Assembly (NCBI GenBank): GCA_002737275.1
Contig: NSIG01000016.1
Coordinates: forward strand, 10,737-49,616
From: Opitutia bacterium
Lineage (GTDB): Bacteria; Verrucomicrobiota; Verrucomicrobiia; Opitutales; Opitutaceae
Direction: 5' to 3'
Length of the DNA stretch: 38,880 nt
Below, piece by piece: positions 16,520 through 35,020 of this stretch. The position numbers and the translations under genes are program-made. Under the pieces are notes generated by a model. The model saw nothing but the letters and a program-made list of their open reading frames with translations, did not search any database and had not been told where the DNA came from. The first letter of the stretch is position 1; every line of letters starts with the position of its first letter.

Positions 16520-16678
16520 GAGGGTAAGAAGGAAAACGCCCCGAGCTAAGACGTCGGCTGCGGGCTAGGCAACCCGTGGCACGCACCCGGCCCGAGCGGC
16601 CTCGACCGGCGCTACTAAAATCCACGCGCGCGCAGGTTCACGATAGCCCTGCACCTGCGGCGCGACGCCCGCGCGAAA

Positions 16679-19927: not shown

Positions 19928-20103
19928 GAGGGAAAAGGCGAGATGTGCGGCCGCCACCAACCACGGTCGAGGATAACCCTCAATGGCCCGAATTCCATGC
20001 GATAATTTAACCTGTCCGTCACAAATCCAAGTGATGCCCCACAGCCGCCCGCTCGGGATCGCAAAGCGGAGGCGGATAACTCTCGCGGCGCCTACTCCGG
20101 TGA

Positions 20104-21013: not shown

Positions 21014-22222
21014 TTATCGACGCGATTTCAATCGCCGGTCTCGGCCACTACCGACAGCCGATGTGCCGCGTAAACTCCTGCGAAAGGCCGCCGGGGTGGA
21101 GCCGTAGTGCCGCGCGAAAAGCGGAATCATGTGTTCGGCGTAAGCGAAGCCGCAGGCATCGGCAATATCGGGAATCGCCATGTCGGTGGAGCTGAGCAGT
21201 TGGCGCACCTTATCGAGTTTGATCCGACGAATCTCCTCGGCGGGGCTATGGCCCATAATCGCGGAGAATCGTTTCTCCAAGGTGCGCCGCGCAATGGGCA
21301 CCGCCCGCAACACGTCTTGGACATTTATACCCGCATTCGAGTTGTCTTTGATGAATCGCATCACTTGGCGAATCTTCGGATCATCGCATTCAAAAATATC
21401 CGTCGATTGCCGCGTCGTGATTCCAAGGGGCCGAAGCACCTGCTCGTCGGTCGCAAGACGACGCCCACGGATCAATTGATCGAGCATGCTGGCCGCATCG
21501 TAGCCGATTCGCTTTACCGGAATGTCTACCCCGCTGATCGGCGGATGGATCGTCTGGCCCAACAAGTCCTCGGTGGAGAGACTGATGATCGAAATTTGGT
21601 CCGGAACTTCGATTCCGGCGAGTTCACACGCGTTGGCCAGATTGCGGCAGGTGATCGTATCCCAACCGATAACCCCGGTCGGCTTCGGCAAACCCTTTAA
21701 CCAGCGGGCGCGGTCTCGTCGTCGCTCCACGAGGCCCGCGTCGAGCCCGACGTTGGGTCCCGGTTGATAGATCAGCGGCGTCAGGCCCAACTTCTCGGCC
21801 ACGCGTTCATAGGCTCGGGTCCAGAAATCAAGAAACTTTCGCTCCGGCTCCCCGCAAAAAGCAATCGAGCGCAGCCCCTTGCTTTTGAGGTGCTCGGCGG
21901 CCAGCTCGACGACCGCATTGGCGTCAGAAGTGACGCGCGGAAAATTCACCCCTTCCAACCGCGCACCCGAGACATTGACGATCGGGACTCGGTAACTTCG
22001 CAGCTCTTCGCCCAGCGCACTGGAGTGCACGGTGGCGATGATGCCATCGCCCTGCCAGCCTTCCGGCATTTGCATCGCGCCGTCGGGTCCGGTGGGCTGC
22101 ATGTCGAGATTCCAAAAATTATTCTGCGCGTAGTGCCACGCCCCTTCGATGATGCCCCGGCCGTAGTGATTCCAGCCGGCGACGAGCAGCGCGACGCGTT
22201 TGTGTTTACGCAATTTGGCCAT
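21014..22222 (-). CDS. XylR-like transcriptional regulator (periplasmic-binding domain plus AraC HTH)
   Basis: A cytoplasmic one-component sugar sensor of 402 aa from the ATG at 22222. Residues about 1-280 form a LacI/GalR-type ligand domain (RVALLVAGWNHYGRGIIEGAWHYA, GDGIIATVHSS, VSGARLEGVNFPRVTSDANAVVELAAEHLKSKG, SIAFCGEPER). The arrangement lacks an N-terminal HTH. Residues about 290-400 are an AraC-type double HTH (VQDVLRAVPIARRTLEKRFSAIMGHSPAEEIRRIKLDKVRQLL, IPDIADACGFAYAEHMIPLFARHYGSTPAAFRR). This is the architecture of E. coli XylR. It is divergent from the TonB receptor that begins the glycan operon, 175 bp away, and is its likely activator, sensing an imported sugar. Confidence 0.93.
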   Translation of the reverse strand: MAKLRKHKRVALLVAGWNHYGRGIIEGAWHYAQNNFWNLDMQPTGPDGAMQMPEGWQGDGIIATVHSSALGEELRSYRVPIVNVSGARLEGVNFPRVTSDANAVVELAAEHLKSKGLRSIAFCGEPERKFLDFWTRAYERVAEKLGLTPLIYQPGPNVGLDAGLVERRRDRARWLKGLPKPTGVIGWDTITCRNLANACELAGIEVPDQISIISLSTEDLLGQTIHPPISGVDIPVKRIGYDAASMLDQLIRGRRLATDEQVLRPLGITTRQSTDIFECDDPKIRQVMRFIKDNSNAGINVQDVLRAVPIARRTLEKRFSAIMGHSPAEEIRRIKLDKVRQLLSSTDMAIPDIADACGFAYAEHMIPLFARHYGSTPAAFRRSLRGTSAVGSGRDRRLKSRR

Positions 22223-22292
22223 GACCGCAGGAGCTTTCGCCTTTACCGGGAAGAATTCGCACGGACCCGAATCACAGAAATTTCTCCGTCGG

Positions 22293-22319
22293 CGCAAATC
22301 ATTAAAATAATAACGCAAA
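22293..22319. promoter_or_regulatory. Direct repeat CGCAAA, 21 bp apart (activator site candidate)
   Basis: CGCAAA at 22293-22298 and 22314-22319 flank a 15-bp AT-rich core, about 80 bp upstream of the TonB-receptor ATG, in the space divergent with the XylR-like gene. A 21-bp period is the spacing AraC-family double-HTH proteins use for half-sites. It is a candidate only; six-base repeats can arise by chance. Confidence 0.4.
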
Positions 22320-22397
22320 CGAGCCTACTGCGACAACGCGCATGCTGCTAAGGTGATCTGATCGTCCGGCATTCAGCCGACATCCACCCCACCCAAC

Positions 22398-25300
22398 ATG
22401 AAGTTCGCGTCCACGTTTCGTTGCGTTGCCCTCGCCCTTGCCTGCCCAATCCTCGACACCGTCGGCTCCGCCCAAATCGCACCAAGCCCGGTCGATCCGG
22501 CTGCCCTCGCCAGGTGGGACAAAAACAAGAACGGTCGTCTCGATCCCGACGAGCTGGCGGCTAAAAGCGCAGCGGAAGCTGCCGGCACGGCGAACGAAGT
22601 CATCAATCTCACGCCCTTTGAGGTTTCAGCCGACGCCTCCGATACTTACCAGGCCACGAACACCAATTCCATCACCGGCACCAATGTCGCCCTCGGCAAG
22701 ACCGCCCTCGATGCCAAGGTGTTTAACCGGCAACTCATGGACGAGCTGGGCGTGGTCGATATGACGCAGATGCTTTCCCAGCTCGGCGGTCTCGGCTCCG
22801 CCATCATCTCCGGCGGCAACGAGGAAGTGCGCGGCGACCTAGACGGAGACCGACAGGATCCGAAAAGCATGACCATGCGCGGGCTGACGATCAGCAACCC
22901 CCGGCGCGACGGCTTCCTCCGCGCCGACACGGCGTTGATGGACTCCTTCGACGTCGAGCGGGTCGACGCACTCGGCGGCTCCAACTCACTCCTCTTTGGC
23001 TCGGGTGACGCTGGCGGCGTCATCACCACCAACTCCAAACGCGCGCTCGTGGGCCGTCGGCAGCACGGGAGCTTCACCGCAGGCGGGGACTCCGAAGGCA
23101 GCCGCCGCTACACTCTCGATGTCGGCGCCGGCTTCAAATATTGGGGCTTTCGCATCAATGCCGTCCATGGCGACACGAAATATTTCCGACCCGCCAACCG
23201 CCAGTTGAATAAAGGCCTCACCTTCGCGACGACCGTTCGACCCTGGAAGAATCTCGAGATCCGCGGCGAGTGGCGTCACTTGATTCGCGACACCACCTAT
23301 CCCAACTCCGGCATCGTGCGCGCTCCGCTCACGCAATTGCTGCCCACCGGTGAGCGGGTGGACAACCAGAGCACGCGTTACCTGGCAGCCTTCCCGAACG
23401 CGAGCGCGCTGACCGACGGACTCATCGACGTCACGAAGGCTGATACGCTCTTCGGCCCCTACTACGCCTTTGCCTTCAAGAACCTCAGCAGATCCGTGGT
23501 CGCCGAAGCGAAGCTCGCTGAAGGACTGGGGCTGCAGGTGCGCTATGGTCACGACGCGCGCGTAAACAATGCGCTTAGTCCCACGAACAACTCAATCTTC
23601 GCACCGGGGGCGGCCGGCAACCTCTACGCGGATCCGGCGACCGGACTGATCGGCACGAAATGGGCGTTCAACATGAACTTTCCGGTCTTGAATCCCTTTC
23701 ATACCGGAGCCCGTGGCTACCGCGCCGCCCTAGCCTACCAAAAGAACCTGGGTCGCTGGGGCTCCCACCAAGCCAGCGCATTTTTTCAAGACATGCAGTC
23801 TTGGACGAACCAGGACCAATGGAGATTCTACGAGGCCGACGCGTCCGGCAACGCACCCGTGAACCCGGCGTTGATTACCGTGGCCGACCTCGGTCGCGTT
23901 CCCATTCCGTCGTTCTGGGTCCCCGTCAATCCCACGGCGCTCGTCGGGGGCAAGAAATGGCCCTTCTCTTCGCTCGTGCATCCCAACGGCAAGACTTACG
24001 TCTCCCAACCGCTGATTTTTCCCGGTGCCGTCCCTCCCACTGCGGGCAACCCCCTCGGTCTCTCCGGACCGATCAACCCGACCACCGGCCAGAGCACCGT
24101 CGGAGGCTATTCCCAAGAGGACGTCACCGAGCGCAGCAGCGGCTTGAGCGTGTTCAGCGAATGGTGGAAGGGGCGGATCGATACGATGGTCGGTTACCGG
24201 ACCGAGGAAGCGAGCGGCTTCCGTAGAAACGTGGGTCTAAGGCGCGGACCCATCAGCTACGATAGCCTCACAACCGGCGCCGTCGTCGACACCCCGCTGA
24301 CGGGCGTTCGCGTCTCGTTCAACTACGCCACCAACGCCAAGATCAACTTCGACACCACCCGCGACATCTACAACCAACCCCTGCCGCCCGGCAAAGGCGT
24401 GAGCAAGGACATCGGCCTGAAGTTCGGACTTTGGCAGGACCGTGTCTCCGGCAATTTCAATTACTATCAGTCCGAGGCCCAGAATTTCACGGCCAACATC
24501 GGCAACCGGAATGACGTCGATCCCGACGGCATCAATGGTCGCAACGGCGGACCATCCTACACCTACAGCAAGACGTCCGACGGTTATAACCTCACGCTCT
24601 CCGCGCGTCCGACCCGCGGCTGGGAAATTCGCGTCAACTTCGCCACCGCCAACGGCAGCGAGCGCACCGACGTGGACCTGCCGCAATTCTACAACGACCA
24701 GTTCAACACCACCACCGTCGGTGGCCAGACCGTCGTCGGCGTCCGCGCCACTCCGGGCGGAGCCGTCACACCCCTGCTCATTCCCTCCGACCCGAGTAAC
24801 CCAGCCTCGGCCCGGATTCCGCTCTCCATCGCGATGATGAAGGATCCGGACAGCCCTTACGTCGCGCAGCTCGACATCGAGTCGGGCCAGATCCTCAACG
24901 CCGAATTGCTCGGCCTCCGCACCCCGGGCGTCGGCACGGCCGTGACCGGGCTCCCGCTCAGCGAGCACCAACTCGGCTTCGTCTCGCCCTCCGGTGGCAG
25001 CCTGATCGTCCGTCGCGCCGGCGAAAAAACCATCGGCTACGCCGAGCGGAGCTACAGCCTGATCAACCGCTATCAGTTCAACGAAGGAAAGCTCCGCGGA
25101 CTTATCGTCGGCCACAGCAGCAGTCTGCGCGACAATCAGCGCGGCTACATGTTCACCGACGCCGCCGACGGGAACAAACGGAAGATGTTCTATTTTCCCG
25201 ACCGCCTCCTGCACGATCTGTTCGCCACCTATCGGTTCAAACCGATCGGGAAAATCCGCACCTCCCTTCAGATCAACGTGACCAATCTGATGGACGAGAA

Positions 25301-25403
25301 CCAAGTCGTTTACCTCGTCCGCTCGACCAACGGCACACTCCGCTACGCCCAATGGCTGAACTCCCCGCGCAAGCTGGGTGTCACCACCACGGTGAGTTTC
25401 TGA
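22398..25403 (+). CDS. TonB-dependent receptor with N-terminal EF-hand
   Basis: A 1001-aa outer-membrane importer opening the glycan operon. The signal peptide ends near residue 25 (…TVGSAQ). Residues 41-52, DKNKNGRLDPDE, are a canonical 12-residue EF-hand loop (D-x-N-x-N-G-x-L-D-x-x-E) placed between the signal peptide and the TonB-box-like INLTPFEVSA (about 74-83), which is unusual. The plug follows (MTQMLSQLGGL, KSMTMRGLTISNPRRDGFLRADTALMDSFDVERVDALGGSNSLLFGSGDAGGVIT), then a barrel ending in Phe (…GVTTTVSF). No SusD-like lipoprotein is encoded nearby, so this is not the Bacteroidetes SusC/D pair. The XylR-like gene lies divergently upstream, and the sulfatase, transporter and enzymes follow without a clear terminator. 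Confidence 0.94.
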   Translation: MKFASTFRCVALALACPILDTVGSAQIAPSPVDPAALARWDKNKNGRLDPDELAAKSAAEAAGTANEVINLTPFEVSADASDTYQATNTNSITGTNVALGKTALDAKVFNRQLMDELGVVDMTQMLSQLGGLGSAIISGGNEEVRGDLDGDRQDPKSMTMRGLTISNPRRDGFLRADTALMDSFDVERVDALGGSNSLLFGSGDAGGVITTNSKRALVGRRQHGSFTAGGDSEGSRRYTLDVGAGFKYWGFRINAVHGDTKYFRPANRQLNKGLTFATTVRPWKNLEIRGEWRHLIRDTTYPNSGIVRAPLTQLLPTGERVDNQSTRYLAAFPNASALTDGLIDVTKADTLFGPYYAFAFKNLSRSVVAEAKLAEGLGLQVRYGHDARVNNALSPTNNSIFAPGAAGNLYADPATGLIGTKWAFNMNFPVLNPFHTGARGYRAALAYQKNLGRWGSHQASAFFQDMQSWTNQDQWRFYEADASGNAPVNPALITVADLGRVPIPSFWVPVNPTALVGGKKWPFSSLVHPNGKTYVSQPLIFPGAVPPTAGNPLGLSGPINPTTGQSTVGGYSQEDVTERSSGLSVFSEWWKGRIDTMVGYRTEEASGFRRNVGLRRGPISYDSLTTGAVVDTPLTGVRVSFNYATNAKINFDTTRDIYNQPLPPGKGVSKDIGLKFGLWQDRVSGNFNYYQSEAQNFTANIGNRNDVDPDGINGRNGGPSYTYSKTSDGYNLTLSARPTRGWEIRVNFATANGSERTDVDLPQFYNDQFNTTTVGGQTVVGVRATPGGAVTPLLIPSDPSNPASARIPLSIAMMKDPDSPYVAQLDIESGQILNAELLGLRTPGVGTAVTGLPLSEHQLGFVSPSGGSLIVRRAGEKTIGYAERSYSLINRYQFNEGKLRGLIVGHSSSLRDNQRGYMFTDAADGNKRKMFYFPDRLLHDLFATYRFKPIGKIRTSLQINVTNLMDENQVVYLVRSTNGTLRYAQWLNSPRKLGVTTTVSF

Positions 25404-25603
25404 TGTCCCCGTCCCCCGGTCTCATCCCACTGAAGACGCGGCTATTTCTCGATCACCGGATGAAACACCCCTTCGACCTCGGCACCGCTTGGTTGTTTGC
25501 CATGCAATCACCCGCCCAAGATTTGTCGTCTGTGCATGCCTTCGACGTCGGGTCGGCGCAGACTACCACTCTCCCGCGCCAGCGCCCAGATCCCAAAACA
25601 TGA
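25403..25603 (+). CDS. Possible 66-aa small protein tiled between receptor and sulfatase
   Basis: An ORF fills the 196-bp gap exactly. Its ATG shares a base with the receptor stop (TGATG) and its TGA overlaps the sulfatase ATG (ATGA). Such double tiling is typical of coupled cistrons. The protein has no signal peptide, membrane segment or motif I recognise; about 70 per cent of its third positions are G or C by hand count, which I judge a little lower than in the neighbouring genes. It could be a real small protein, a translated leader that couples the sulfatase to the receptor, or chance. Confidence 0.35.
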   Translation: MSPSPGLIPLKTRLFLDHRMKHPFDLGTAWLFAMQSPAQDLSSVHAFDVGSAQTTTLPRQRPDPKT

Positions 25604-26931
25604 CACCCCAGAAGAGTTTCACGTGGGCCATCGCTTGGGGAGTCGCGACGGCTCTGAGTTTCCCGGCCTTCGCTGCCGGCAAATCAGCCAGCCAAGCCAA
25701 CATCGTTCTGATCATGGCCGACGACCTCGGCTACGGTTCGTTGGGCTGCTACGGCAGCACGGAAAACAAAACACCCCACCTCGACCACCTCGCCGCCGGC
25801 GGCATGCGATTCACCGACTTTCACAGTAACGGCCCCATGTGTTCACCCACCCGCGCCGCCCTGTTAACCGGTCGCTATCCGCAGCGCTGCGCTTGGGTTC
25901 CCGACGAGGAACTCTCTCCGGTCTTCCAAGAACAGCGCCGGAAAAACCCTAAGCAACGTTGGGCGTGGGGCCTCTCGCCCAGTGAAGTGACCGTCGGCGC
26001 CTTGCTGCGGTCGGCCGGCTATCGCACTGCCCTCATCGGCAAGTGGCACCTCGGCTACGATTTCAAATTCCATCCCCTGAACTACGGCTTCGATGAATTC
26101 CGCGGCTTCGTCGGCGGCAACGTCGACTACCGCACCCACTTCGCCAGTCACGGCGAGCAGCAGCTCGATTGGTGGAACGGCAAAAAAATCGCGAACGAGG
26201 CCGGCTACACGACGGACCTCTTGACCAAGTATGCCGCCGAATTCATCGCCCAAAACGAAGACGCGCCGTTCTTCCTCTTTTTCTCCCACGCGGCTCCGCA
26301 CGATCCGTGGCAGAGCCGGGATCCCGCGCAGACAAATTCTCCTGTGGAAATCTATCGCGAAATGATCGAGGGAGTGGATGCGTCGGTCGGCGCCATCGTC
26401 GCCACGCTGCGCACGCACGGCCTGGAGAAAAACACTCTGCTGCTCTTTTGCTCGGACAACGGAGCCGCTCCGCCGCGGGGTGTTCCCGCGAACGGCCGCC
26501 TCAAAGGACGAAAGGGCAGCATGCACGAAGGCGGCCACCGCGTGCCTCTCATCGCTTCATGGCCGGGTGTGACTACGGCCGGTGCGACCAACAACGCCAC
26601 CGTGATGACCATGGATTTCCTGCCGACGTTCACGAACATGGCCGGGGCGACGACGCCCGTCCGCCATGTGATCGACGGCATCGACCTGATGCCGCAGCTC
26701 ACCGGTCAGGCGACGCCACCTCAGCGCGCACTCCACTGGCTCTTCGGCAGCGACTGGGCCGTGCGCCGGGGCGCTTGGAAGCTGGTGCAAGAAGGCGCGA
26801 AAGAGCTTTCCCTCGTCAACGTCGAGCAAGACCTCGCCGAAACCACCAACCTCGCCCACGTAAATCCAGCCCTCGTCGATGAACTCACGCGTCTTCACCA
26901 GCAGTGGATCGTCTCCGTCGGAAACAAATAA
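25600..26931 (+). CDS. Secreted S1-family sulfatase
   Basis: Removes sulfate esters from a carbohydrate in the periplasm or outside the cell. It is 443 aa with a signal peptide (…ALSFPAFAAG), starting at 25600. Metal-binding Asp pair DD at 41-42 (IVLIMADDLGYGSLGCYG). CSPTRAALLTGR at 81-92 is the C-x-P-x-R formylglycine signature, so Cys81 needs conversion by a formylglycine-generating enzyme, which is not in this window. GKWHLG (Lys148, His150), HAAPHDPW and SDNGAAPP complete the active site. It is the arylsulfatase-A-like S1 type; the subfamily cannot be read by eye. Three bases separate it from the MFS gene. It implies that the operon's glycan carries sulfate. Confidence 0.95.
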   Translation: MTPQKSFTWAIAWGVATALSFPAFAAGKSASQANIVLIMADDLGYGSLGCYGSTENKTPHLDHLAAGGMRFTDFHSNGPMCSPTRAALLTGRYPQRCAWVPDEELSPVFQEQRRKNPKQRWAWGLSPSEVTVGALLRSAGYRTALIGKWHLGYDFKFHPLNYGFDEFRGFVGGNVDYRTHFASHGEQQLDWWNGKKIANEAGYTTDLLTKYAAEFIAQNEDAPFFLFFSHAAPHDPWQSRDPAQTNSPVEIYREMIEGVDASVGAIVATLRTHGLEKNTLLLFCSDNGAAPPRGVPANGRLKGRKGSMHEGGHRVPLIASWPGVTTAGATNNATVMTMDFLPTFTNMAGATTPVRHVIDGIDLMPQLTGQATPPQRALHWLFGSDWAVRRGAWKLVQEGAKELSLVNVEQDLAETTNLAHVNPALVDELTRLHQQWIVSVGNK

Positions 26932-26934
26932 CTC

Positions 26935-28209
26935 ATGAGCTCAACTTCACCCTCTCTCCGCTGGACGATCGCCGTGCTCCTGTGTTTTTCGACCGCCCTC
27001 AACTACCTCGACCGCCAGGTGCTCTCGATTTTGGCCACTACGATCCAAAAAGATCTGGGGATCGACGACATCGGCTACGCAAAAATCACGACGTATTTTC
27101 TTCTCAGCTACACGATCATGTATGCGGTCAGCGGTCGCTTGGTCGATTTCCTTGGCACGCGCCTCAGTTTGGCGTGGGCCGTCGCGGGGTGGTCGGTGGC
27201 CGGCATGCTTCACGGTGCCGCCAACTCGGTGGCGCAATTGTCGTTGTGCCGGTTTATCCTCGGGACCTTTGAGGCCGCGAATTTCCCCGCCGGAGCCAAA
27301 GCGGTCTCCGAGTGGTTCCCGCTTAAGGAACGCGCGCTGGGCATGGGCCTCTTCGCCTCCGGGGGGGCCCTCGGCGCGGTGATTGCCTTCCCGATGGTGA
27401 CGTGGCTCGCGCTGAGTTATGGTTGGCGATCCACCTTCGTAGTGGTGGGCGCAGTCGGCTTCTTATGGGTGGTGGCGTGGCTCGTGGTCTGCAAGCGGGC
27501 GGCGCCCAAATTCGTCGAGGCAACCTCGACCAACCAACCCAATGGCGGCACCCCCGCACCTCTGGCAGAGAAGCCCTTTGGCTTAAAGGAGCTGCTATGC
27601 TACCGGCGGACGTGGGGCTGCATTCTGGTCCGGGTCTTCACCGATCCGATAATATATTTCATCAGTTTCTGGGTGCCCAAATACCTGACCGCCAACCACG
27701 GCTATACGCTCAGCGACATCGGTCTGTTTGCCTGGATTCCGTTCGCGGCTCTCTCGGCGGGACAGATCTCGGGCGGCGCGCTCGTAAACTGGCTGGTCGG
27801 TCGCGGCTACGGGCTGGACCCGGTCCGCAAGCACCTGATGCTTGGGGCCTCGCTGCTCGTGCTCGTGTCGGGGGCCCTGGTCGCCTTGACCACGAGTCCT
27901 TCGCTGGCGCTGGCCGGGGTGGCGTTTCTGGCGCTCGGCCACGGCCTCTTTGGAAATCTGGCCGTGCCGGCCGAGGTCTTCCCCTCCCATAGCGTCGCCT
28001 TTGTCACGGGCTTGGGCGGCACGCTCGGCGGCGTGGTCGGCATCATTTCCCAATTCTGCATCGCGTGGGCCGCGGGGCATCAGGGCTATCCCTACATCTT
28101 CGCCGTCTTCAGCGTATTTCCCTTGCTGGCATTTTTCTCGGTCAAACTGTTGGTCGGCCAACTCGGCGTAATTTCCCACCAACTTCCGCAAAAAATCACG
28201 ACTTCATGA
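26935..28209 (+). CDS. MFS transporter, ExuT/hexuronate-like
   Basis: An inner-membrane symporter of 424 aa with about 12 helices. LCFSTALNYLDRQVLSILATTIQKDLGI and LGTFEAANFPAGAKAVSEWFPLKERALGMGLFASGGALGAVIAFP are the conserved blocks of the anion:cation symporter branch that contains ExuT, GudP and related acidic-sugar transporters. PIIYFISFWVPKYLTANHGYTLSDIGLFAWIPF is also typical. It sits between the sulfatase and a Gfo/Idh enzyme, and its stop overlaps the next ATG by four bases (ATGA). It most likely takes up the monomer or small acidic sugar released from the glycan; the uronate preference is inferred from the family. Confidence 0.9.
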   Translation: MSSTSPSLRWTIAVLLCFSTALNYLDRQVLSILATTIQKDLGIDDIGYAKITTYFLLSYTIMYAVSGRLVDFLGTRLSLAWAVAGWSVAGMLHGAANSVAQLSLCRFILGTFEAANFPAGAKAVSEWFPLKERALGMGLFASGGALGAVIAFPMVTWLALSYGWRSTFVVVGAVGFLWVVAWLVVCKRAAPKFVEATSTNQPNGGTPAPLAEKPFGLKELLCYRRTWGCILVRVFTDPIIYFISFWVPKYLTANHGYTLSDIGLFAWIPFAALSAGQISGGALVNWLVGRGYGLDPVRKHLMLGASLLVLVSGALVALTTSPSLALAGVAFLALGHGLFGNLAVPAEVFPSHSVAFVTGLGGTLGGVVGIISQFCIAWAAGHQGYPYIFAVFSVFPLLAFFSVKLLVGQLGVISHQLPQKITTS

Positions 28210-29240
28210 GCCACCTTCCTCTACGTATCGCCATCGCTGGCGCCGGAATCATGGGGCGCGCCCACGCCGAAGCTTTTCTCGCGTGCGGTGCCCAGATTGT
28301 CGCCTGCGTGGATCGCAACGCGGATCGGGCCCATGAACTCGCGGCGGCGAGCGGCGGCACGGCCTTCAGCACGGTGGCCGAGGCGCTGCGGGAGAAGCCC
28401 GATGCGCTGAGCATCTGTCTGCCGCACAGCCTGCACTTCGATGCCGCCATGGAGGCCGTCGACCAGAACGTGGCGCTCTTGATGGAGAAACCCCACTGCA
28501 TCACGTTGGCCGAGTCCCGCACGTTGCGGGCCGCGTGTTCGCAACGCGGGGTGTTGGCGATGGCCGGGTTCACGCACCGCTTCCTCGCTACTTCGCGCAC
28601 CCTCAAAGCGTGCATCGCTTCCGGCCGATTGGGGCGGGTCGAACTCGCCGTGGACCGACTCGTGGCCAATGCCCTCGGCGACCATGCCCCTGCGTGGTAT
28701 CGCGACCGCGCGCTCGCCGGAGGCGGTATCGCGATGATCGGCATGATTCACTCGATCGACCGTCTGCGGTGGCTGCTGGACGCCGAAATCACCCGCGTGT
28801 GGGCGCTGACAAAAACACCCACAGGATCCTCCGAGGTCGAGCAGACCGCCCTCGCCCTGCTTGAGTTCTCCAACGGTGCCCAGGCTTCGCTGGTCGCGCA
28901 TCGCACCCCCGCCCCCGGCCACGAGCGCTCCCACCGCTACGAAATCTACGGCGAAAAACTCGTGGCGCATTGCGCGGTGGGCTCCTTCGCCCTCCAAGAG
29001 ATCGAATTGGTCGGACCCGGCGGGCAGGCCCGCGAAACCGTCACCGACGACCGTCCTTTTATCACCGAGATTCAGGAGTTCACCTCCGCGTTGATCGCCG
29101 GAAGAAATGCGACGCCCGATCTGCTGGACGCCGAGATCGCCTTGGGCGTCGTGCTCGCGATCTACGAATCGGCCCAAACCCATCAGCCCATTTCCATCCA
29201 AGAATTCCTCGGAGCCACCGCCACCCCCAACTCAGCTTAA
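28206..29240 (+). CDS. Gfo/Idh/MocA-family NAD(P)-dependent oxidoreductase
   Basis: A cytoplasmic sugar oxidoreductase of 344 aa. The Rossmann motif is GAGIMGRAHAEAF (about 12-24), the family Lys is in MEKPHC (EKP motif), and the substrate-side motif GGIAMIGMIHSIDRLRWLL supplies the conserved His and Asp. Its ATG overlaps the MFS stop, so it is translationally coupled to it. It probably acts on the imported sugar acid or sugar at C2 or C3, but members range from dehydrogenases to glycosidases and the sequence does not settle the reaction. The start at 28206 was chosen over an upstream in-frame start inside the MFS gene. Confidence 0.93.
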   Translation: MSHLPLRIAIAGAGIMGRAHAEAFLACGAQIVACVDRNADRAHELAAASGGTAFSTVAEALREKPDALSICLPHSLHFDAAMEAVDQNVALLMEKPHCITLAESRTLRAACSQRGVLAMAGFTHRFLATSRTLKACIASGRLGRVELAVDRLVANALGDHAPAWYRDRALAGGGIAMIGMIHSIDRLRWLLDAEITRVWALTKTPTGSSEVEQTALALLEFSNGAQASLVAHRTPAPGHERSHRYEIYGEKLVAHCAVGSFALQEIELVGPGGQARETVTDDRPFITEIQEFTSALIAGRNATPDLLDAEIALGVVLAIYESAQTHQPISIQEFLGATATPNSA

Positions 29241-29251
29241 ACGCCACCGCC

Positions 29252-30139
29252 ATGTCCGACCAAATCTTCCTCTCCAAATATAGCCCGCTGAAAAATATTC
29301 TGTTTGCCGATGACTTCGACAACGGGATCAACGGCTGGTGCGAGCTGATCGGTAACCACGACGGCGACCTGAACAAGGTGCGCAAAGTCATGGAGGATCT
29401 GCGCCCGCCCCAACTCTCGAACGCCAACTTCTTCGACATCGGCAGCCACGGTTCGCTGTCCGGCACCTACTCGATGAAGCTCGCGACCCGCGCCAAGGCC
29501 GGCCACATGGCCCAGACCATCAAGCGCGCGACCTCGCGCTCAAACGGCCGCGTGCGCGTCGAGTGCTACTTCACCTACAAGTCGGAGCAGATCTTCGGCG
29601 CCGCCACCAACTGGGATGGCAATGTCGATCCCTCCGAAACGAATTTCGGCGATTTCACGATCAGCAACGACATTTGCGAAGGCGACGACGGCGTGCGCTA
29701 TCACTGCGCGTTGCGCTACCTGAACACCGACGAGACCGGCAAACTCGTGCAGCACTGGATGTATAAGACCTCGGTGCAACCCAGCACCAAGATGGTGATG
29801 TCCGGCATGGTGCAGCCGAACTACGACTACCACGTCATCAACAAGAACGACTGGAAGCCCGTGCCGAACGGTCACCAGCCGCTGTGCTACAACGAGATTC
29901 CGACCAAGATCAACTGGCACTACTTGCGTTGGGACTTCGACACCCGCCTGCGCCGCAACGTCGAACTACAAGTGAACGACAAGATCATGCCCCTCCACGA
30001 TATCCCAGTCCCGGTCTACGAGCATCGCTACAAGGCCCTGAGCCGGCTGATGAATTTCTGCCTCGATGTGCGCACGCACCGGCCGGTCCGGAATTTTCTC
30101 TTCATCGATTCGGTGGTCGCTTCCTTCGAGCAACAATGA
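29252..30139 (+). CDS. Conserved protein of unknown function, 295 aa (glycan operon)
   Basis: I do not recognise this protein with certainty; it may belong to an uncharacterised DUF (DUF6772 comes to mind, unverified). It has no signal peptide or transmembrane segment and is predicted cytoplasmic. It is rich in aromatic residues and alternating hydrophobic strands (VRVECYFTYKSEQIFG, HYLRWDFDTRLRRNVELQVNDKIMPL, NFLFIDSVVASFEQ), suggesting a concanavalin-like beta-sandwich of the laminin-G or lectin kind. The opening ILFADDFDNGINGWCELIGNHDG resembles carbohydrate-binding proteins that begin 'DDFD…G'. It starts 11 bp after the Gfo/Idh gene and its stop overlaps the next ATG (ATGA). Being fixed between dehydrogenase and TIM-barrel-like genes suggests a role in sugar binding or modification. 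Confidence 0.85.
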   Translation: MSDQIFLSKYSPLKNILFADDFDNGINGWCELIGNHDGDLNKVRKVMEDLRPPQLSNANFFDIGSHGSLSGTYSMKLATRAKAGHMAQTIKRATSRSNGRVRVECYFTYKSEQIFGAATNWDGNVDPSETNFGDFTISNDICEGDDGVRYHCALRYLNTDETGKLVQHWMYKTSVQPSTKMVMSGMVQPNYDYHVINKNDWKPVPNGHQPLCYNEIPTKINWHYLRWDFDTRLRRNVELQVNDKIMPLHDIPVPVYEHRYKALSRLMNFCLDVRTHRPVRNFLFIDSVVASFEQQ

Positions 30140-31332
30140 GCTTCCTGCGCGCCATCAATCTTTTCCCCTGGGACGTGGCCAGCGAAGGCGCGGCCGAGTG
30201 CCTCGGCGCCATCACGGACCTCGGCTGCAATAGCGTCGTCCTAAGTCCGAACTACCATCGCGCCCGGCTATTTCGTCCGCGCACGTTGGGATTCTACAAT
30301 CGCCCGATTGATTGGTGCGATTTCCGACCCGATCCCTCGCTCTATGAAGAGCCCGGCCTGCTGCCGCCGATCAATCCAGACGCCCGCTGCGTCGAGGGCT
30401 GCCACCAAGCCGCCGTGGCGGCAAAGGCCAACGGTCTCGACGTGATCGTTTCGGTGGTCGGCTGTCACAACACGACGATTGGACTTAGCCACCCTGAGCT
30501 TTGCATTGAGAATGCCTTCGGCGACCGCTACGCATTTGCGCTCAGTCCGGCGCAGCCCCGCGTGCGCTCCTTCCTCGGCAGCCTCGTGCGTGACCTGTGC
30601 CGGCAATACCACCCAAGCTCAATTCTCCTCGACAGCTTCTCCTACCTCGACGCGGTGCACCGCGAACACCACGAGTTGATGTTCGTCAGCCCCGGCGCGT
30701 TTGGAAAATATCTGCTGTCACTGTGCTTCTGTCCGGCGTCATGCGCCCGCCTGCAACGCGAAGGAATCGATCCGGTGGCCCTGCGCACCCAGGTTATCAA
30801 ATTGGTGCAACACACGGTGGCGAATACCCCCGGTCCGCGTTCGCCGGAAGCCGAGCGGGATGAACTCACCGGGTTGCTGTTCGAGTTCCCGGAGTTTTTG
30901 GCGGCGGCGCGGATTCGCTCCGACATCGTGGCCGAGTTGCTTGCTCACATCGCGGCGATCGCCCGCGAAGAAGGCGTGCGCCTCCACAGCCAGAGCGCGT
31001 TGCTGGCCCGGCCAACCTCTCGGGTTTGGACGGAGGGCGCCGGTCTTCGCACCCGCGCCGAGTCCTGCGAGAAAATCTTTATCCAAGCCCATTGGCCGTC
31101 GGCGCGTGAAGCGATCCACGACTTGAGCTGGGCGGCCACCGTGCTTCCGGCCGAGCGCTTCGTGCTCGGCACCATGACGAGCGAGGACAACGTCGCGACC
31201 GAGGCCGACCTCGTGCAGCGCGCGGTGGCGGCGAAGCGCCTCGGCGCCGCTGGCGTCAGCTTCTACAACTACGGGCTCCTTTCGGCAGCCCGCCTGGGCT
31301 GGATCCGGACGGCGAACACCAGCACCCGATGA
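30136..31332 (+). CDS. Putative TIM-barrel carbohydrate enzyme of unassigned family, 398 aa
   Basis: No signal peptide, so probably cytoplasmic. The layout suggests a (beta/alpha)8 barrel: CNSVVLSPNYH, GLDVIVSVVGCHNTTIGLSHPELCIENAFGDRYAFALSPAQPRVRSFLGSL, SSILLDSFSYLDAVHREHHELMF, YLLSLCFC and later VLGTMTSEDN and GVSFYNYGLL at successive strand ends. The HN…HPE…NAFGD…PAQPRVR…L(D/E)SF…HHE order is one I have seen in uncharacterised proteins annotated as putative glycoside hydrolases. Candidate acid residues are the Asp of LLDSF and the Glu of HHELM. It overlaps the preceding gene by ATGA. Reaction unknown; it could hydrolyse, isomerise or epimerise a disaccharide or uronide. Confidence 0.8.
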   Translation: MSFLRAINLFPWDVASEGAAECLGAITDLGCNSVVLSPNYHRARLFRPRTLGFYNRPIDWCDFRPDPSLYEEPGLLPPINPDARCVEGCHQAAVAAKANGLDVIVSVVGCHNTTIGLSHPELCIENAFGDRYAFALSPAQPRVRSFLGSLVRDLCRQYHPSSILLDSFSYLDAVHREHHELMFVSPGAFGKYLLSLCFCPASCARLQREGIDPVALRTQVIKLVQHTVANTPGPRSPEAERDELTGLLFEFPEFLAAARIRSDIVAELLAHIAAIAREEGVRLHSQSALLARPTSRVWTEGAGLRTRAESCEKIFIQAHWPSAREAIHDLSWAATVLPAERFVLGTMTSEDNVATEADLVQRAVAAKRLGAAGVSFYNYGLLSAARLGWIRTANTSTR

Positions 31333-31405
31333 ATCTTTCCACCCTATTACCGGTATCGGGTTCACCGCCTGCCGATTCAACCCTCAAGCACCTCTGAATA
31401 ATTCT

Positions 31406-31735
31406 ATGATCCGTAATTCCCATACCGCAGTCCTGGAGCGAAACGTTACTTTCACCGACGTGTTGGTAACGGAACCCTATGAAGTCGCGTGGTCGAGCGA
31501 GGCCCGCGTCTTCGTGCGAGCCCTCGACTTGTGCGGCCACATCGAGGCGTCGGCCGAGATTTCCCCCGATGGCCTTTTTTGGATGCCCGAAGGCACTCCG
31601 CCCGTGACCCTCGCACATGCCGGACTGCTCTCGTTCCCCCTGCGCGACTACGGCCACTGGCTGCGCGTGGTCCTGCGGGTGACCGGTGAGACGCCCTCGG
31701 CCCGGGTGATCGTTTACGTGGCATTGAAGGAGTAA
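31406..31735 (+). CDS. Small orphan protein, 109 aa (glycan operon)
   Basis: A 109-aa protein lying 73 bp after the TIM-barrel-like gene and 10 bp before the beta-helix gene. It has no signal peptide or helix; alternating strands (VLVTEPYEVAWSSEARVFVRALD, IEASAEISPDGLFWMPEG, RDYGHWLRVVLRVTGETPSARVIVYVALKE) suggest a small beta-sandwich. It contains none of the motifs I know. It may be an accessory or binding subunit to the two unknown proteins before it. Codon use looks like that of its neighbours, so it is very likely real. Confidence 0.75.
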   Translation: MIRNSHTAVLERNVTFTDVLVTEPYEVAWSSEARVFVRALDLCGHIEASAEISPDGLFWMPEGTPPVTLAHAGLLSFPLRDYGHWLRVVLRVTGETPSARVIVYVALKE

Positions 31736-31745
31736 ACATACCGTC

Positions 31746-33947
31746 ATGACTATTCGCTCCCTCGTTCCCCTCACGGTCCGCCTCGCGCTGGTTCTGCTGC
31801 CCGTTGCACTCGTCGGCGCCACGCGCATTCACGTCGCCACGCAGGGTAACGATGCCCACGCGGGCACCACCGAGAATCCGCTGGCAACCCCGCAAGCCGC
31901 CCGCGACCAGGCGAGGCAGATCATCGCCCGAGGGCTCAACGAGCCCATTGAAATCGTCTTCGCTGCGGGCACCTACAAGCTGAAATCGCCGCTCGAACTC
32001 CGGCCCGCAGATTCCGGCACCGAGAAGTTTCCCGTCACCTGGCAAGCTGCGCCCGGAGCCAAAGTGATTTGGTGCGCGGGCCAAGCGATCCCGCAAAAAT
32101 GGAGCAAGGACACCGATGGCGTGTGGCAGGTAGACCTCAACGGCGTCGGCCCCGCGGCGTGGAATTTCCGGCAACTGTTCGTGAACAACCAACGCGCCAC
32201 CCGCGCCCGCTTTCCCAATGCCGACTCGCCCAACCCATTCCTCTACGCCACCGGTGGCGACCTAGACCACGCCATGATCGCCCCGGAGTTGGTCAAGGCA
32301 TCGTGGGGCAACGCCCGCGATGCGCAGATCAATATCGTCCCGCAGTGGCGGTTCTTCAACCAGTGGAACACGGTCACCAAGGTGGACGCCCAAACCGGGC
32401 GTATCGACATCACCGATAGCGAACGGCACGCGAAAATTATTCCTGGAAACTGGTTCTGGATCGAGGGCGTGCGCGAGGAACTCGACCAACCCGGCGAGTG
32501 GTTTTTCGATCAGACCACCCGTCGTCTTCACTATCTGCCGACGCCGGGCGTCGATCCCAACACCCTGGAGATCATCGCTCCCGTGCTGAACCGGATCGTC
32601 AACGCTCAGGGCGACGTCAATGCCGGCACTCACGTTCAACACGTGCATTTCGAAGGCATCGAGTTCCGCCACACGAGCTTTTCGCTGGGTCACATTGAGG
32701 CGCGCGTGCACACCGACACGGCGATCATGTTCGAGAACACCCTCGATTGCTCCGTCCGTAACTGCCACTTCGAGAACATCGGCGGTTACGCCCTATGGCT
32801 GCACCTCGACAGCCGCCGCAACAAATTTGACCGCAATACCGTCCGCCACTCCGGCGGCGGTGGCGTGCTCATGACCGGCGCGCGATTGTCCTACATGGAC
32901 GACACCAAGACTTACACCCCCGGCGCGGCGGCGGCCAAGGTCGCGCCCTTCCTCAACGAAGTCACCCGCAACACCGTCGAGCACTGCGGAAAAATCCGTT
33001 ACTACGGCGGCGGCGTGCACCTCGACTCGCGGCCCTTCAGCATGTCGATGGAGCCGGGAAATCTCATTTCGCATAACTACTTCAACGACCTCTCGCGCAA
33101 TGGCGTCTTCGCGTTTCGCAACCAGGGCGGCAGCGTGGTGGAGTATAACCACATCCACAATGCCATGCAGACGACCATCGACGGTGCCTGCATCCACTTC
33201 GCGACGATGAATCACCTCAACGCACCAAACTTCATCCTCAATAACTGGCTCTACGACGCGTGGGGCTACGAACAAAAGCCCAACGGCAAACCCGTTCGCA
33301 AACTCGGCAACGGCATCTTCCTCGACTGGGACACCAGCAACACCACCGTCCACGAAAACTGGATCTACAACTCCGTCGGCGGCGCCATCAAACCGATCTG
33401 GGAAAACCAAAACCTCGTCATCGAAAACAACCGCGAGTCCGCCACCCGCATCGTGCCGCCCTTCGTCGCTGAACTCGGCCCCAACGGCAAAGCCACCAGC
33501 GGCATCGACCTCGCGACGAATCGCCTCACCGGCAGCATCATTCATTACACCGATTCCAAACACGTCACCACGACCGGCAAGTGGAGCCCCGAAACGGCTA
33601 TCGGGATGTGGGGACTCTTCCGCTTCAACTTTTTGGTAGGCACCGCCGCTGTTCCAGCGAAAGCCATCTACACGCTCTCCATCCCGGAAGTCGGCACCTA
33701 CCAGATTTCGCTCCTCTACAAACCCGGCGCTGATCGGGCGTCGAACGTGCCGGTCGTCATCGACCATGCCGAAGGAACCGCGAACCTCACTTGGAATATG
33801 CGCAAGGGATCCAAGCACGCCTTCTCTGTCCCGATCGGCACCTATCGGTTCAATGCCGGGAAAAGCCACACGGTCACGCTCTCGACCGCGAATACGGATG
33901 GTAACGTGATCGCCGACGCGGTCGCCTTTGTGAAGGTCGCCGATTGA
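31746..33947 (+). CDS. Secreted parallel beta-helix glycoside hydrolase-like protein (GH141-like) with golvesin-like C-terminus
   Basis: A 733-aa exported protein with a signal peptide ending near VALVGA. Residues about 27-100 (IHVATQGNDAHAGTTENPLATPQAARDQAR) open a right-handed parallel beta-helix. VWQVDLNGV…FRQLFVNNQRATRARFPNAD is the block I associate with GH141 (alpha-L-fucosidase/xylanase) and related families. Helix rungs follow (HVHFEGIEFRHTSF, DCSVRNCHFENIGGYAL, NKFDRNTVRHSGGGGVLM, NLISHNYFNDLSRNGVFAF, VVEYNHIHNA). From about residue 595 a golvesin/xanthan-lyase-type C-terminal domain follows (YTLSIPEVGTYQISLLYKPG, VIADAVAFVKV). It probably attacks the sulfated glycan outside the cytoplasm. 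A polysaccharide-lyase activity is the main alternative. Confidence 0.85.
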   Translation: MTIRSLVPLTVRLALVLLPVALVGATRIHVATQGNDAHAGTTENPLATPQAARDQARQIIARGLNEPIEIVFAAGTYKLKSPLELRPADSGTEKFPVTWQAAPGAKVIWCAGQAIPQKWSKDTDGVWQVDLNGVGPAAWNFRQLFVNNQRATRARFPNADSPNPFLYATGGDLDHAMIAPELVKASWGNARDAQINIVPQWRFFNQWNTVTKVDAQTGRIDITDSERHAKIIPGNWFWIEGVREELDQPGEWFFDQTTRRLHYLPTPGVDPNTLEIIAPVLNRIVNAQGDVNAGTHVQHVHFEGIEFRHTSFSLGHIEARVHTDTAIMFENTLDCSVRNCHFENIGGYALWLHLDSRRNKFDRNTVRHSGGGGVLMTGARLSYMDDTKTYTPGAAAAKVAPFLNEVTRNTVEHCGKIRYYGGGVHLDSRPFSMSMEPGNLISHNYFNDLSRNGVFAFRNQGGSVVEYNHIHNAMQTTIDGACIHFATMNHLNAPNFILNNWLYDAWGYEQKPNGKPVRKLGNGIFLDWDTSNTTVHENWIYNSVGGAIKPIWENQNLVIENNRESATRIVPPFVAELGPNGKATSGIDLATNRLTGSIIHYTDSKHVTTTGKWSPETAIGMWGLFRFNFLVGTAAVPAKAIYTLSIPEVGTYQISLLYKPGADRASNVPVVIDHAEGTANLTWNMRKGSKHAFSVPIGTYRFNAGKSHTVTLSTANTDGNVIADAVAFVKVAD

Positions 33948-33967
33948 GTGGAAGCGCGAACGAAATC

Positions 33968-35020
33968 ATGAATACCACCATGCGCGCCGCCGTGTTGGAG
34001 TCCGCCCGCACGATCAAGGTCCAGCCCCGGTCCACCCCGGAACTGAAAGCCGGCATGGTCCTGCTTCGCGTCCGCCGCGCCGGAATTTGCGGTTCTGATC
34101 TGCACTACTTCGACCACGGCTGTTGCGGCGCGTTTGTGCCGACGCGTCCTTTCGTTTTGGGCCACGAGTTTGCTGCGGAAGTCGCCGCCATCGGCGAGGG
34201 CGTGGCCAACGTGCAAGTCGGCGCGCGCGTCACCGCCAATCCAGCCCGGGCCTGCCTCGTCTGCGAGTATTGCAAGAGCGGTCGCCCCAACCTCTGTCGC
34301 CACACGATCATGTTGGGCAGTGCCAGCACGACTCCACCCACCGATGGAGCGTTTGCGGAATTCGTCACCGTGCGCGCCGACCAGTGTCACGTCCTGCCGC
34401 CGGGTATGGATGACGCAACCGCCGCCATGCTGGAGCCGTTCGCCGTCGCACTCCACGCCGTGAAGCGCGCCGGAACTGTCTCGGGTAAACGCGTCTTGGT
34501 CACCGGTGGCGGCCCGATCGGATTACTCGTGGCCATGACCGCACGGATGTTTGGTGCCGCGCTCGTGGCGTTGAGCGACATCTTGGCCTCACGTCGCGAG
34601 ACCGCGCTGAAACTAGGTGCCGATGTGGGCTTAAATCCCACCGATCCCCACTTGGCTGAGGTTGTCCGCGAGCGGGTCGGCGACGGCTTTGATGTCGTGT
34701 TCGAGGCTTCGGGCGCAAAAGCCGCCCTCCGCCAAGCCTTCAATCTGGTGCGCCCTAGCGGCACGATTGTGCAAATCGGCACGTTGGGCACGGAGGACAT
34801 TCTACTCCCGGCGAATCAACTGATGGTGCGCGAAATCAACTTCATTGGCTCGATGCGCTACGGCAACGTCTTCGACGAAGCGATCCGCTTGGTTCAGGCC
34901 GGGCGAATCGATTTGCGACCGCTCATCAGCGGCGTCCTACCACTCTCCGAGGCCGTCGAGGCGATGCAGTTGGCCGGAGATAAGACCAACGCCCTCAAGG
35001 TGCAGCTGGAAATTAGCTAA
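33968..35020 (+). CDS. Zinc-dependent medium-chain dehydrogenase, L-idonate 5-dehydrogenase-like
   Basis: A cytoplasmic NAD(P)-linked polyol or aldonate dehydrogenase, 350 aa from the ATG at 33968. A TTG at 33944 overlapping the previous stop is less likely. Catalytic zinc ligands lie in GICGSDLHYFDHG (Cys) and VLGHEF (His, Glu). The structural zinc lobe is CLVCEYCKSGRPNLC with four cysteines. The Rossmann motif is VTGGGPIGLLVAMTARMFG. HYFDHG…G.F..TRPFVLGHE is closest to L-idonate 5-dehydrogenase, with sorbitol/threonine dehydrogenases as alternatives. It closes the operon and would act on the sugar acid brought in by the ExuT-like transporter. The converging rarA gene ends 63 bp further on. 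Confidence 0.9.
   Translation: MNTTMRAAVLESARTIKVQPRSTPELKAGMVLLRVRRAGICGSDLHYFDHGCCGAFVPTRPFVLGHEFAAEVAAIGEGVANVQVGARVTANPARACLVCEYCKSGRPNLCRHTIMLGSASTTPPTDGAFAEFVTVRADQCHVLPPGMDDATAAMLEPFAVALHAVKRAGTVSGKRVLVTGGGPIGLLVAMTARMFGAALVALSDILASRRETALKLGADVGLNPTDPHLAEVVRERVGDGFDVVFEASGAKAALRQAFNLVRPSGTIVQIGTLGTEDILLPANQLMVREINFIGSMRYGNVFDEAIRLVQAGRIDLRPLISGVLPLSEAVEAMQLAGDKTNALKVQLEIS

Follow-up and report, generated by a model that had tools for sequence, protein, structure and literature searches.

A SusD-less locus of an Opitutia bacterium, possibly for sulfated glycans, carries a widespread DUF6772 gene pair

Glycan-utilisation loci are usually named after their secreted enzymes, and the cytosolic steps are filled in by guesses. 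In the accessible part of one survey, no SusCD genes were found in its Verrucomicrobiota metagenome-assembled genomes (MAGs; PMC8857213), which makes a locus without SusD not unusual there. Haemophilus influenzae, according to the available part of the account, has an L-gulonate route of GulD, UxuB and UxuA (PMC5788505). Here we describe a SusD-less locus in a stretch of 38,880 nucleotides from an Opitutia bacterium of the family Opitutaceae, called the window below. Its core contains a DUF6772 protein (PF20562) and a protein of 109 amino acids (p109), and this pair is found far beyond the window. The window is part of a 71-kb contig in a 2.65-Mb MAG that is 68% complete.

DUF6772 and p109 are a widespread, nearly always paired cassette across distant bacteria. 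When genome contigs were scanned once with an alignment of four sequences, 68 DUF6772 loci emerged, which carry L-numbers here. These come from six phyla: Actinomycetota, Pseudomonadota, Chloroflexota, Bacteroidota, Verrucomicrobiota and that of one planctomycete. An iterated profile search in the reading frames of all 68 found a p109 homologue at 67. The remaining locus, L054, is on a contig that ends about 210 nt past DUF6772. With start codons set by a simple rule, p109 starts at most 400 nt downstream of DUF6772 in 61 of the 67 loci, and at most 30 nt downstream in 53. The others are five window-type loci and L045 (417 nt).

Additional copies mostly come as pairs as well. Six extra whole DUF6772 copies were seen in five loci, and five of these copies have a p109 of their own (one each in L038, L039, L040, L061 and L062). 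Two further copies, in L059 and L071, extend past the end of the retrieved sequence, so their pairing cannot be judged. In the 273 genomes of the order, the p109 profile matched four places in three genomes, which coincide with the four complete DUF6772 genes; genome G089 has one more DUF6772 match, the fifth, which is partial and stops where the contig does. Seven annotated plasmid records were found, and in all three that were examined DUF6772 adjoins a 'hypothetical protein' of about 112 amino acids.

A preliminary description of the window counted three unassigned proteins in the core of the locus. Two of these are orphans no longer. The protein of 295 amino acids belongs to DUF6772, with 381.4 bits against a cut-off of 27 over residues 6-293. 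p109 scores 19.1 bits against DUF6385 (PF19912), below the gathering cut-off of 26.8, but 48 of the 62 members of its family match DUF6385 at E <= 0.01 (best 3.2e-8). This makes it a relative of DUF6385, and not a filed member. The third protein (p398, 398 amino acids) is still without a family name. A literature search found no paper naming DUF6772 or DUF6385.

A sequence search of solved structures gave no match for DUF6772. The p109 profile gave two very weak ones (E 0.05 and 0.066), one of them named a carbohydrate-binding protein. The DUF6772 alignment (A3) consists of the window and 61 of the 68 loci, leaving out near copies (L031, L036, L052), fragments (L047, L080) and loci with a stop inside the matched stretch (L070, L072). 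In the p109 alignment (A4), the window is joined by 61 rows, drawn from 57 of the 67 p109-bearing loci; L031, L036, L042, L050, L052, L055, L058, L060, L072 and L074 were left out. Over 62 DUF6772 sequences, 23 columns are invariant, including N35, K76, R92, E104, E112, D140, R155, N214, E215, K219 and D230. Charged and amide residues that never change would favour an active site.

A structural model of DUF6772, built with 62 sequences, has a mean predicted local distance difference test score (pLDDT) of 89 and a predicted template modelling score (pTM) of 0.90. It is a concanavalin-type jelly roll. VIA-align places 188 of its residues on ERGIC-53 with a Z of around 14 and a root-mean-square deviation (rmsd) of 3.1 A, and Z is similar for many lectins, with legume lectins among the best neighbours. 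GH16-kind glycosidases and X122 domains, whose function is unknown, are on the Foldseek list too and superpose poorly (TM ~0.4, rmsd 7-12 A); the fold assignment is based on VIA-align and not on these. A predicted jelly roll by itself cannot tell a lectin from an enzyme.

The window locus is a conserved but rare accessory locus of Opitutaceae-type Verrucomicrobiota. Five other loci (L013-L017), all from Verrucomicrobiota MAGs, hold the Gfo/Idh, DUF6772, p398, beta-helix and p109 genes together, so this arrangement is not chance. The gene order is recognisable in all five; absence of such synteny had been named beforehand as something that would speak against a coherent locus. DUF6772 is 80-92% identical there, p398 follows directly (61-87%), and the beta-helix gene and p109 (70-82%) are downstream. 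Gfo/Idh homologues are found upstream of DUF6772 in L013-L018. Orthologues of the MFS transporter (66-74%) occur in L014, L015 and L016, the three whose sequence extends far enough. The Zn-dehydrogenase is whole in L016, present as a C-terminal stretch only in L014, and cut by the end of the stretch in L015.

The inner block is better conserved than the outer, glycan-facing block. A TonB receptor orthologue (76-77%) is present in L015 and L016. L014 and L015 have sulfatase orthologues (62-67%), L013 and L016 more distant sulfatases, and L017 none within its 7.4 kb. The beta-helix gene comes in two kinds, an 82-85% orthologue in L013 and L015, and a 34-38% kind in L013, L014, L016 and L017. As to rarity, among 273 genomes of the order, 3 have a PF20562 match over the cut-off; among 387 of the phylum, 2 do. 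Both counts include the window's own genome. The same-genus genome G264 has no DUF6772.

p398 is found at 6 of 69 loci (window counted), and these are exactly the window clade. There it separates DUF6772 from p109, which it does at no other DUF6772 locus examined. GHL10, a glycosyl-hydrolase-like family, is matched by 6 of 9 p398 members at E <= 1 (best E 0.0035) and is sub-threshold for the window protein. A sequence search of solved structures had no match of weight. Within the order, full-length relatives at 22-25% exist in three other genomes, with a short match in a fourth. UxuA adjoins two of the three full-length relatives (25%), with DHDPS-family and aldehyde-dehydrogenase genes near; the third is without it. 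At L086 and L087, in genomes without a DUF6772 match, the neighbours of the p398 relative are UxuA and genes of the DHDPS, aldehyde dehydrogenase and M20 types (the last, in L087, named by reading).

In the DUF6772 tree, well-supported branches separate the window-type Verrucomicrobiota from the other Verrucomicrobiota, which go with Bacteroidota. The sister of the window clade is L018, which is chloroflexotan. The simplest story would be that the cassette was transferred into the window lineage, and that the pair was later split by the p398 and beta-helix genes.

What surrounds the pair elsewhere gives a hint of its use. Neighbour clusters come from a rough caller of open reading frames (ORFs) with homology priority, so false ORFs remain; each cluster was named from one to four representatives, and some neighbours were named by reading. 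A Pfam census covers 105 of 189 listed neighbours, at 16 of 24 listed loci. Sugar importer clusters (ABC, MFS or sodium symporter) are near the pair at 45 of 68 loci, and MR/MLE-type dehydratases at 14. Dehydrogenases, aldolases and regulators are also found there. Sugar-acid genes are present at a good part of the loci.

The mannonate dehydratase UxuA is present at the loci L018 (430 bits) and L062 (354), both against a cut-off of 23.7, and in L061 (448.8 against 199.6). The unrelated mannonate dehydratase ManD is at L053 (741.8 bits against 550). L018 has, in a row, Gfo/Idh, DUF6772, p109, an Amidohydro_2-type protein, Zn-dehydrogenase, SDR and UxuA. In L061, and also L062, a Zn-dehydrogenase and a UxuB-like gene accompany UxuA and the pair. 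The window's genome has one UxuA, outside the locus. Together with the p398 relatives beside UxuA, these sugar-acid neighbours point the cytosolic half of the locus towards sugar-acid catabolism that ends at mannonate and 2-keto-3-deoxygluconate (KDG). The acidic-sugar direction of the preliminary description thereby gains indirect support.

Some of these loci are of interest by themselves. L061 and L062 (Cucumibacter marinus and Mesorhizobium) each have the DUF6772-p109 pair twice, in a single operon-like run that also holds UxuA, the UxuB-like gene and the Zn-dehydrogenase. L068, L076 and L078, from Puniceicoccaceae and Opitutaceae MAGs, are a second, distant DUF6772-p109 locus type within Verrucomicrobiota. 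All three have a GntR-type regulator, an HpcH/HpaI aldolase and a sodium symporter, and L068 and L076 have an MGH1-like glycoside hydrolase of the mannosylglycerate hydrolase type. In the Comamonadaceae-type loci L057 and L060 (partly also L056, L063 and L080), the pair is beside an AstE/AspA-type hydrolase, an amidohydrolase and a PLP-dependent enzyme, a hint that the substrate there may contain an amide or amino group.

Our preferred reading, to which we give about an even chance, is that the window carries an accessory sulfated-glycan utilisation locus, built around the cytosolic DUF6772 + p109 cassette and feeding the mannonate/KDG route. In the order we would propose, the secreted S1 sulfatase and the GH141-like enzyme would start, outside the cytoplasm, by trimming the glycan. 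Fragments or an acidic sugar would be brought inward by the TonB receptor and the MFS transporter, and a cytosolic Gfo/Idh enzyme would oxidise the sugar. DUF6772, with p109 as its small partner subunit, would then do the next cleavage or ring-opening. p398 would supply a clade-specific step. Finally, the Zn-dehydrogenase would pass a keto-aldonate to the mannonate/KDG route, for which the dehydratase UxuA would come from elsewhere in the genome.

In this reading DUF6772 and p109 would form one enzyme, presumably a two-subunit one that cleaves a glycan or a lactone. A bolder version, possible and on the doubtful side, sees in the pair a hitherto unrecognised class of cytosolic carbohydrate enzyme with two subunits, which would open imported sugar-acid glycosides or lactones in several phyla; in Opitutaceae it would have been captured into a sulfated-glycan locus together with p398, itself of an unnamed mannonate-pathway enzyme family. 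Such a class would have a jelly-roll catalytic subunit whose active site needs the small partner, with chemistry undescribed so far; this too is offered tentatively, as somewhat unlikely.

The sulfatase domain (PF00884) reaches 206 bits against 25, and CSPTR can be read in the translation, where the signature motif of S1 sulfatases is C/S-x-P-x-R. Its best solved match is the exo-4S-kappa-carrageenan S1 sulfatase 6prm, over residues 29-437, and this suggests a target of the galactose-4-sulfate type. The genome has two genes of the FGE-sulfatase family. The beta-helix enzyme is a putative GH141-type protein, at 31.8 bits against 27 for GH141_M and 58 against 25.9 for Beta_helix; a Golvesin_C domain is over its Pfam cut-off too. 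The closest solved chains are 9rx2, a parallel beta-helix repeat protein, and BT_1002. A literature search on the solved chains 9RX2, 8W9S and 9VCM found nothing useful. GH141 includes endo-fucanases too, according to the part of a report that is available (PMC12786026). The sulfatase, beta-helix and GH141 matches taken together do not fix the identity of the glycan. The presence of uronic acid in it, proposed earlier, is plausible: it is compatible with the data and not established by them.

On the import side, the TonB receptor scores 19.2 bits against the SusC/RagA model TIGR04056, whose cut-off is 368, so it is not a SusC by this measure. A Pfam scan of the ten locus proteins has no SusD family. 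The locus is SusD-less, as first described, and lacks the SusD beside the receptor of a Bacteroidota-type polysaccharide utilisation locus (PUL). The earlier labels 'ExuT-like' for the transporter and 'idonate-dehydrogenase-like' for the last enzyme are loose. The transporter has 215.2 bits against the D-galactonate transporter model TIGR00893 (cut-off 395), and the dehydrogenase 290.3 bits against the NCBIfam equivalog for L-idonate 5-dehydrogenase (cut-off 469). The solved chains closest to the latter are a ketose reductase and the L-idonate 5-dehydrogenase 6dkh (E 8e-60).

Several observations weigh against the sulfated-glycan and mannonate/KDG reading. Jelly rolls are equally common in lectins and enzymes, and we know of no activity for DUF6772, p109 or p398. 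The sulfatase, TonB receptor and beta-helix orthologues differ among the six loci, so the outer part is variable. A mannonate dehydratase is recognised at just 4 of 68 loci. A stricter set of sugar-acid genes is present at 25 of the 68, a loose set at 41. At 11 loci from Actinomycetota, nothing but an MFS transporter and a LacI regulator was recognised around the pair. The fructuronate-reductase family (Mannitol_dh_C) was not found in the window's genome, which is incomplete as noted above.

The pairing has its own weak spots. The third L038 copy of DUF6772 (14592-15485) has no p109 and is the only whole unpaired copy seen, which is why we write 'nearly always paired' and not 'obligate'. It may be a duplicate that shares a partner, or one that has lost it. 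The distances of DUF6772 and p109 correlate at 0.84 over 63 loci, and seven other neighbour clusters correlate less. However, over the same 18 loci the LacI neighbour reaches 0.97 and the pair 0.89. With this control above the pair, the mirror-tree test does not discriminate, and the correlation is no proof of contact.

An alternative is that DUF6772 + p109 is a new aldonolactonase or lactone-processing pair, placed between a sugar dehydrogenase and an aldonate dehydratase. We consider this unlikely. Each of three annotated plasmid operons combines a mandelate-racemase-type enzyme and sugar ABC permeases with DUF6772, its adjacent hypothetical protein and an SDR dehydrogenase. The SDR comes directly after the pair in two of them. 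In the other one it lies four genes further along, and the permeases come behind the pair. Given both dehydrogenase and dehydratase, the lactonase step is left unfilled. The census of 105 neighbours yielded 53 families; the 25 of them that are listed include no SMP-30-type lactonase, a negative that does not extend to the other 28. Conversely, an Amidohydro_2-type protein occurs at at least four loci (L018, L022, L043, L044). The one in L018 resembles a fuconolactonase, below cut-off, and would be redundant with a lactonase pair. Many DUF6772 loci also have no recognised dehydratase for such a lactonase to feed.

The pair might also be a two-subunit beta-eliminase of C- or O-glycosides, in which Gfo/Idh makes a 3-keto-glycoside that DUF6772 + p109 cleaves. 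In the available part of the literature on C-glycoside deglycosidases, Gfo/Idh precedes an alpha/beta enzyme whose active site is complete only with the small beta-sandwich subunit (PMC8563793). The window clade and L018 have Gfo/Idh directly upstream of the large/small pair. This seems quite unlikely nonetheless, since the alpha subunit of those enzymes folds as a metal-binding TIM barrel and DUF6772 is modelled as a jelly roll. In addition, a close homologue of the window Gfo/Idh is present at just 6 of 68 loci (L013-L018), with distant ones (23-25%) at L043, L044 and L066.

Another alternative is that the pair is non-catalytic, a cytosolic lectin-like couple that senses or buffers an acidic sugar. 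The lectins that lead the structural neighbours, the carbohydrate-binding protein among the two very weak p109 matches, and the Actinomycetota loci with only a transporter and a LacI regulator would fit with this. The many invariant charged and polar residues of DUF6772 do not, and neither does the frequent position of the pair inside catabolic operons. We regard it as distinctly improbable. Very unlikely, finally, is an ordinary sulfated-glycan locus in which sulfatase, beta-helix enzyme, transporters and dehydrogenases do the work and the pair is carried along as a bystander: the rarity of the locus would suit this, but each of L013-L017 has Gfo/Idh, DUF6772, p398 and p109, whereas the sulfatase, receptor and beta-helix genes vary.

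Table 1. Coordinates of the locus features in the window.
Feature	Position	Strand	Remarks
XylR-type regulator (periplasmic-binding-like domain + AraC-type HTH)	21014..22222	-	start codon at 22222
Candidate operator, tandem CGCA half-sites GGCGCA-N17-CGCAA, divergent gap	22291..22318	+	
TonB-dependent receptor, non-SusC by score	22398..25403	+	plug domain (Pfam)
S1 sulfatase, CSPTR motif + N-terminal leader	25600..26931	+	PF00884 E 8e-61
MFS importer resembling D-galactonate/hexuronate carriers	26935..28209	+	TIGR00893 below cut-off
Gfo/Idh/MocA oxidoreductase	28206..29240	+	Pfam GFO_IDH_MocA + C-terminal domains
DUF6772 protein (PF20562), 295 aa	29252..30139	+	E 3e-114
p398 (398 aa), no family name; weak GHL10 likeness	30136..31332	+	
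p109 (109 aa), DUF6772 partner, distant DUF6385	31406..31735	+	
GH141-like right-handed beta-helix enzyme, N-terminal leader, Golvesin_C domain	31746..33947	+	
Zn-dependent polyol/aldonate dehydrogenase (ADH)	33968..35020	+	best model L-idonate 5-dehydrogenase, below cut-off

The coordinates in Table 1 confirm the gene order and spacing first described, from the regulator through the Zn-dehydrogenase. Sulfatase and MFS genes are 3 bp apart, and p109 and the beta-helix gene 10 bp. MFS and Gfo/Idh overlap by ATGA, as do DUF6772 and p398. N-terminal hydrophobic leaders, reported before on the receptor, the sulfatase and the beta-helix enzyme, were seen again by inspection and suggest export. A small ORF between receptor and sulfatase (25352-25603, or with a shorter start) had been counted as a gene. 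It overlaps the end of the receptor and has no counterpart in L015 or L016, where the MFS gene follows the receptor after about 30 and about 130 nt, respectively. We therefore treat it as spurious.

The divergent regulator was correctly typed as XylR-like. It is over the Pfam cut-offs for Peripla_BP_3, PBP1_XylR (30.6 against 27) and HTH_18 (65.8 against 33.6), which covers both the XylR N-terminal part and the AraC-type helix-turn-helix (HTH). Its orthologues in L014 (72%) and L016 (69%) are likewise divergent. The block GGCGCA-N17-CGCAA is conserved, at the same position, across the aligned divergent gaps of the window, L014 and L016. In the window it has 1 match, against 0.10 expected. It also matches once each in L050, L062 and L071, and one further time each in L014 and L016. 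Given these matches elsewhere, and a pattern picked after viewing the alignment, it is a candidate operator at most. Rfam gave 0 matches at gathering scores, and promoter and terminator scans gave counts close to the shuffled mean.

Outside the locus, the window has prfB-, pyrH-, frr-, proB- and uvrD-like core genes, by reading of their translations, which makes a binning error unlikely. A second outer-membrane set adjoins the locus: a minus-strand run at 14169-19960 has a TonB receptor, an MFS transporter (GlpT/UhpC-like by reading) and a glycerophosphodiester phosphodiesterase, and this set suggests use of glycerophosphodiesters. A protein of 509 amino acids at 1145-2674, also on the minus strand, has no Pfam family at E <= 1e-5.

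The pair recurs across phyla near sugar importers, and often near sugar-acid enzymes. Knowing its reaction would annotate many catabolic operons at a stroke, and would also help to pin down the glycan on which the Opitutaceae locus acts. Direct tests are within reach, since several of the carriers are named strains from culture collections, such as Elioraea tepidiphila DSM 17972, Cucumibacter marinus DSM 18995, Devosia enhydra ATCC 23634 and Bosea lathyri DSM 26656.

How does the locus compare with known systems? DUF1080 proteins cleave 3-keto-glycosides, have a concanavalin-like fold and work with Gfo/Idh dehydrogenases. DUF6772 has no Pfam match other than PF20562 at E <= 0.1. DUF1080 is not among the structural matches listed for DUF6772, an absence that excludes nothing.

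The C-glycoside deglycosidases (DgpA + DgpB/C, CarB/C), as far as the accessible account goes, share with the window a Gfo/Idh gene followed by genes for a large and a small subunit (PMC8563793). Their large subunit is a sugar-isomerase-like TIM barrel, and the jelly roll predicted for DUF6772 would thus not be an alpha subunit of this type. As to the small subunit, the p109 profile has no solved match below E 0.05.

L061 and L062 are like the H. influenzae L-gulonate route, with a Zn-dependent ADH, UxuB-like and UxuA genes beside the pair (PMC5788505, in the part available). The window locus differs in having its UxuA elsewhere in the genome, and the 68%-complete genome yielded no gene of the UxuB type. 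The available part of the H. influenzae account mentions no DUF6772, p109, Gfo/Idh or glycan enzymes (PMC5788505).

The closest likeness in the outer genes is to the sulfatase-rich, PUL-like loci of Verrucomicrobiota, in which sulfatases, GH141-type enzymes and sugar transporters are clustered without SusD (PMC8857213, again in the part available). Those loci are there defined around GH29 fucosidases, and the ten proteins of the window locus include no GH29. Unlike them, as far as they are described in that part, the window locus has a core of Gfo/Idh, DUF6772, p398, p109 and the Zn-dehydrogenase.

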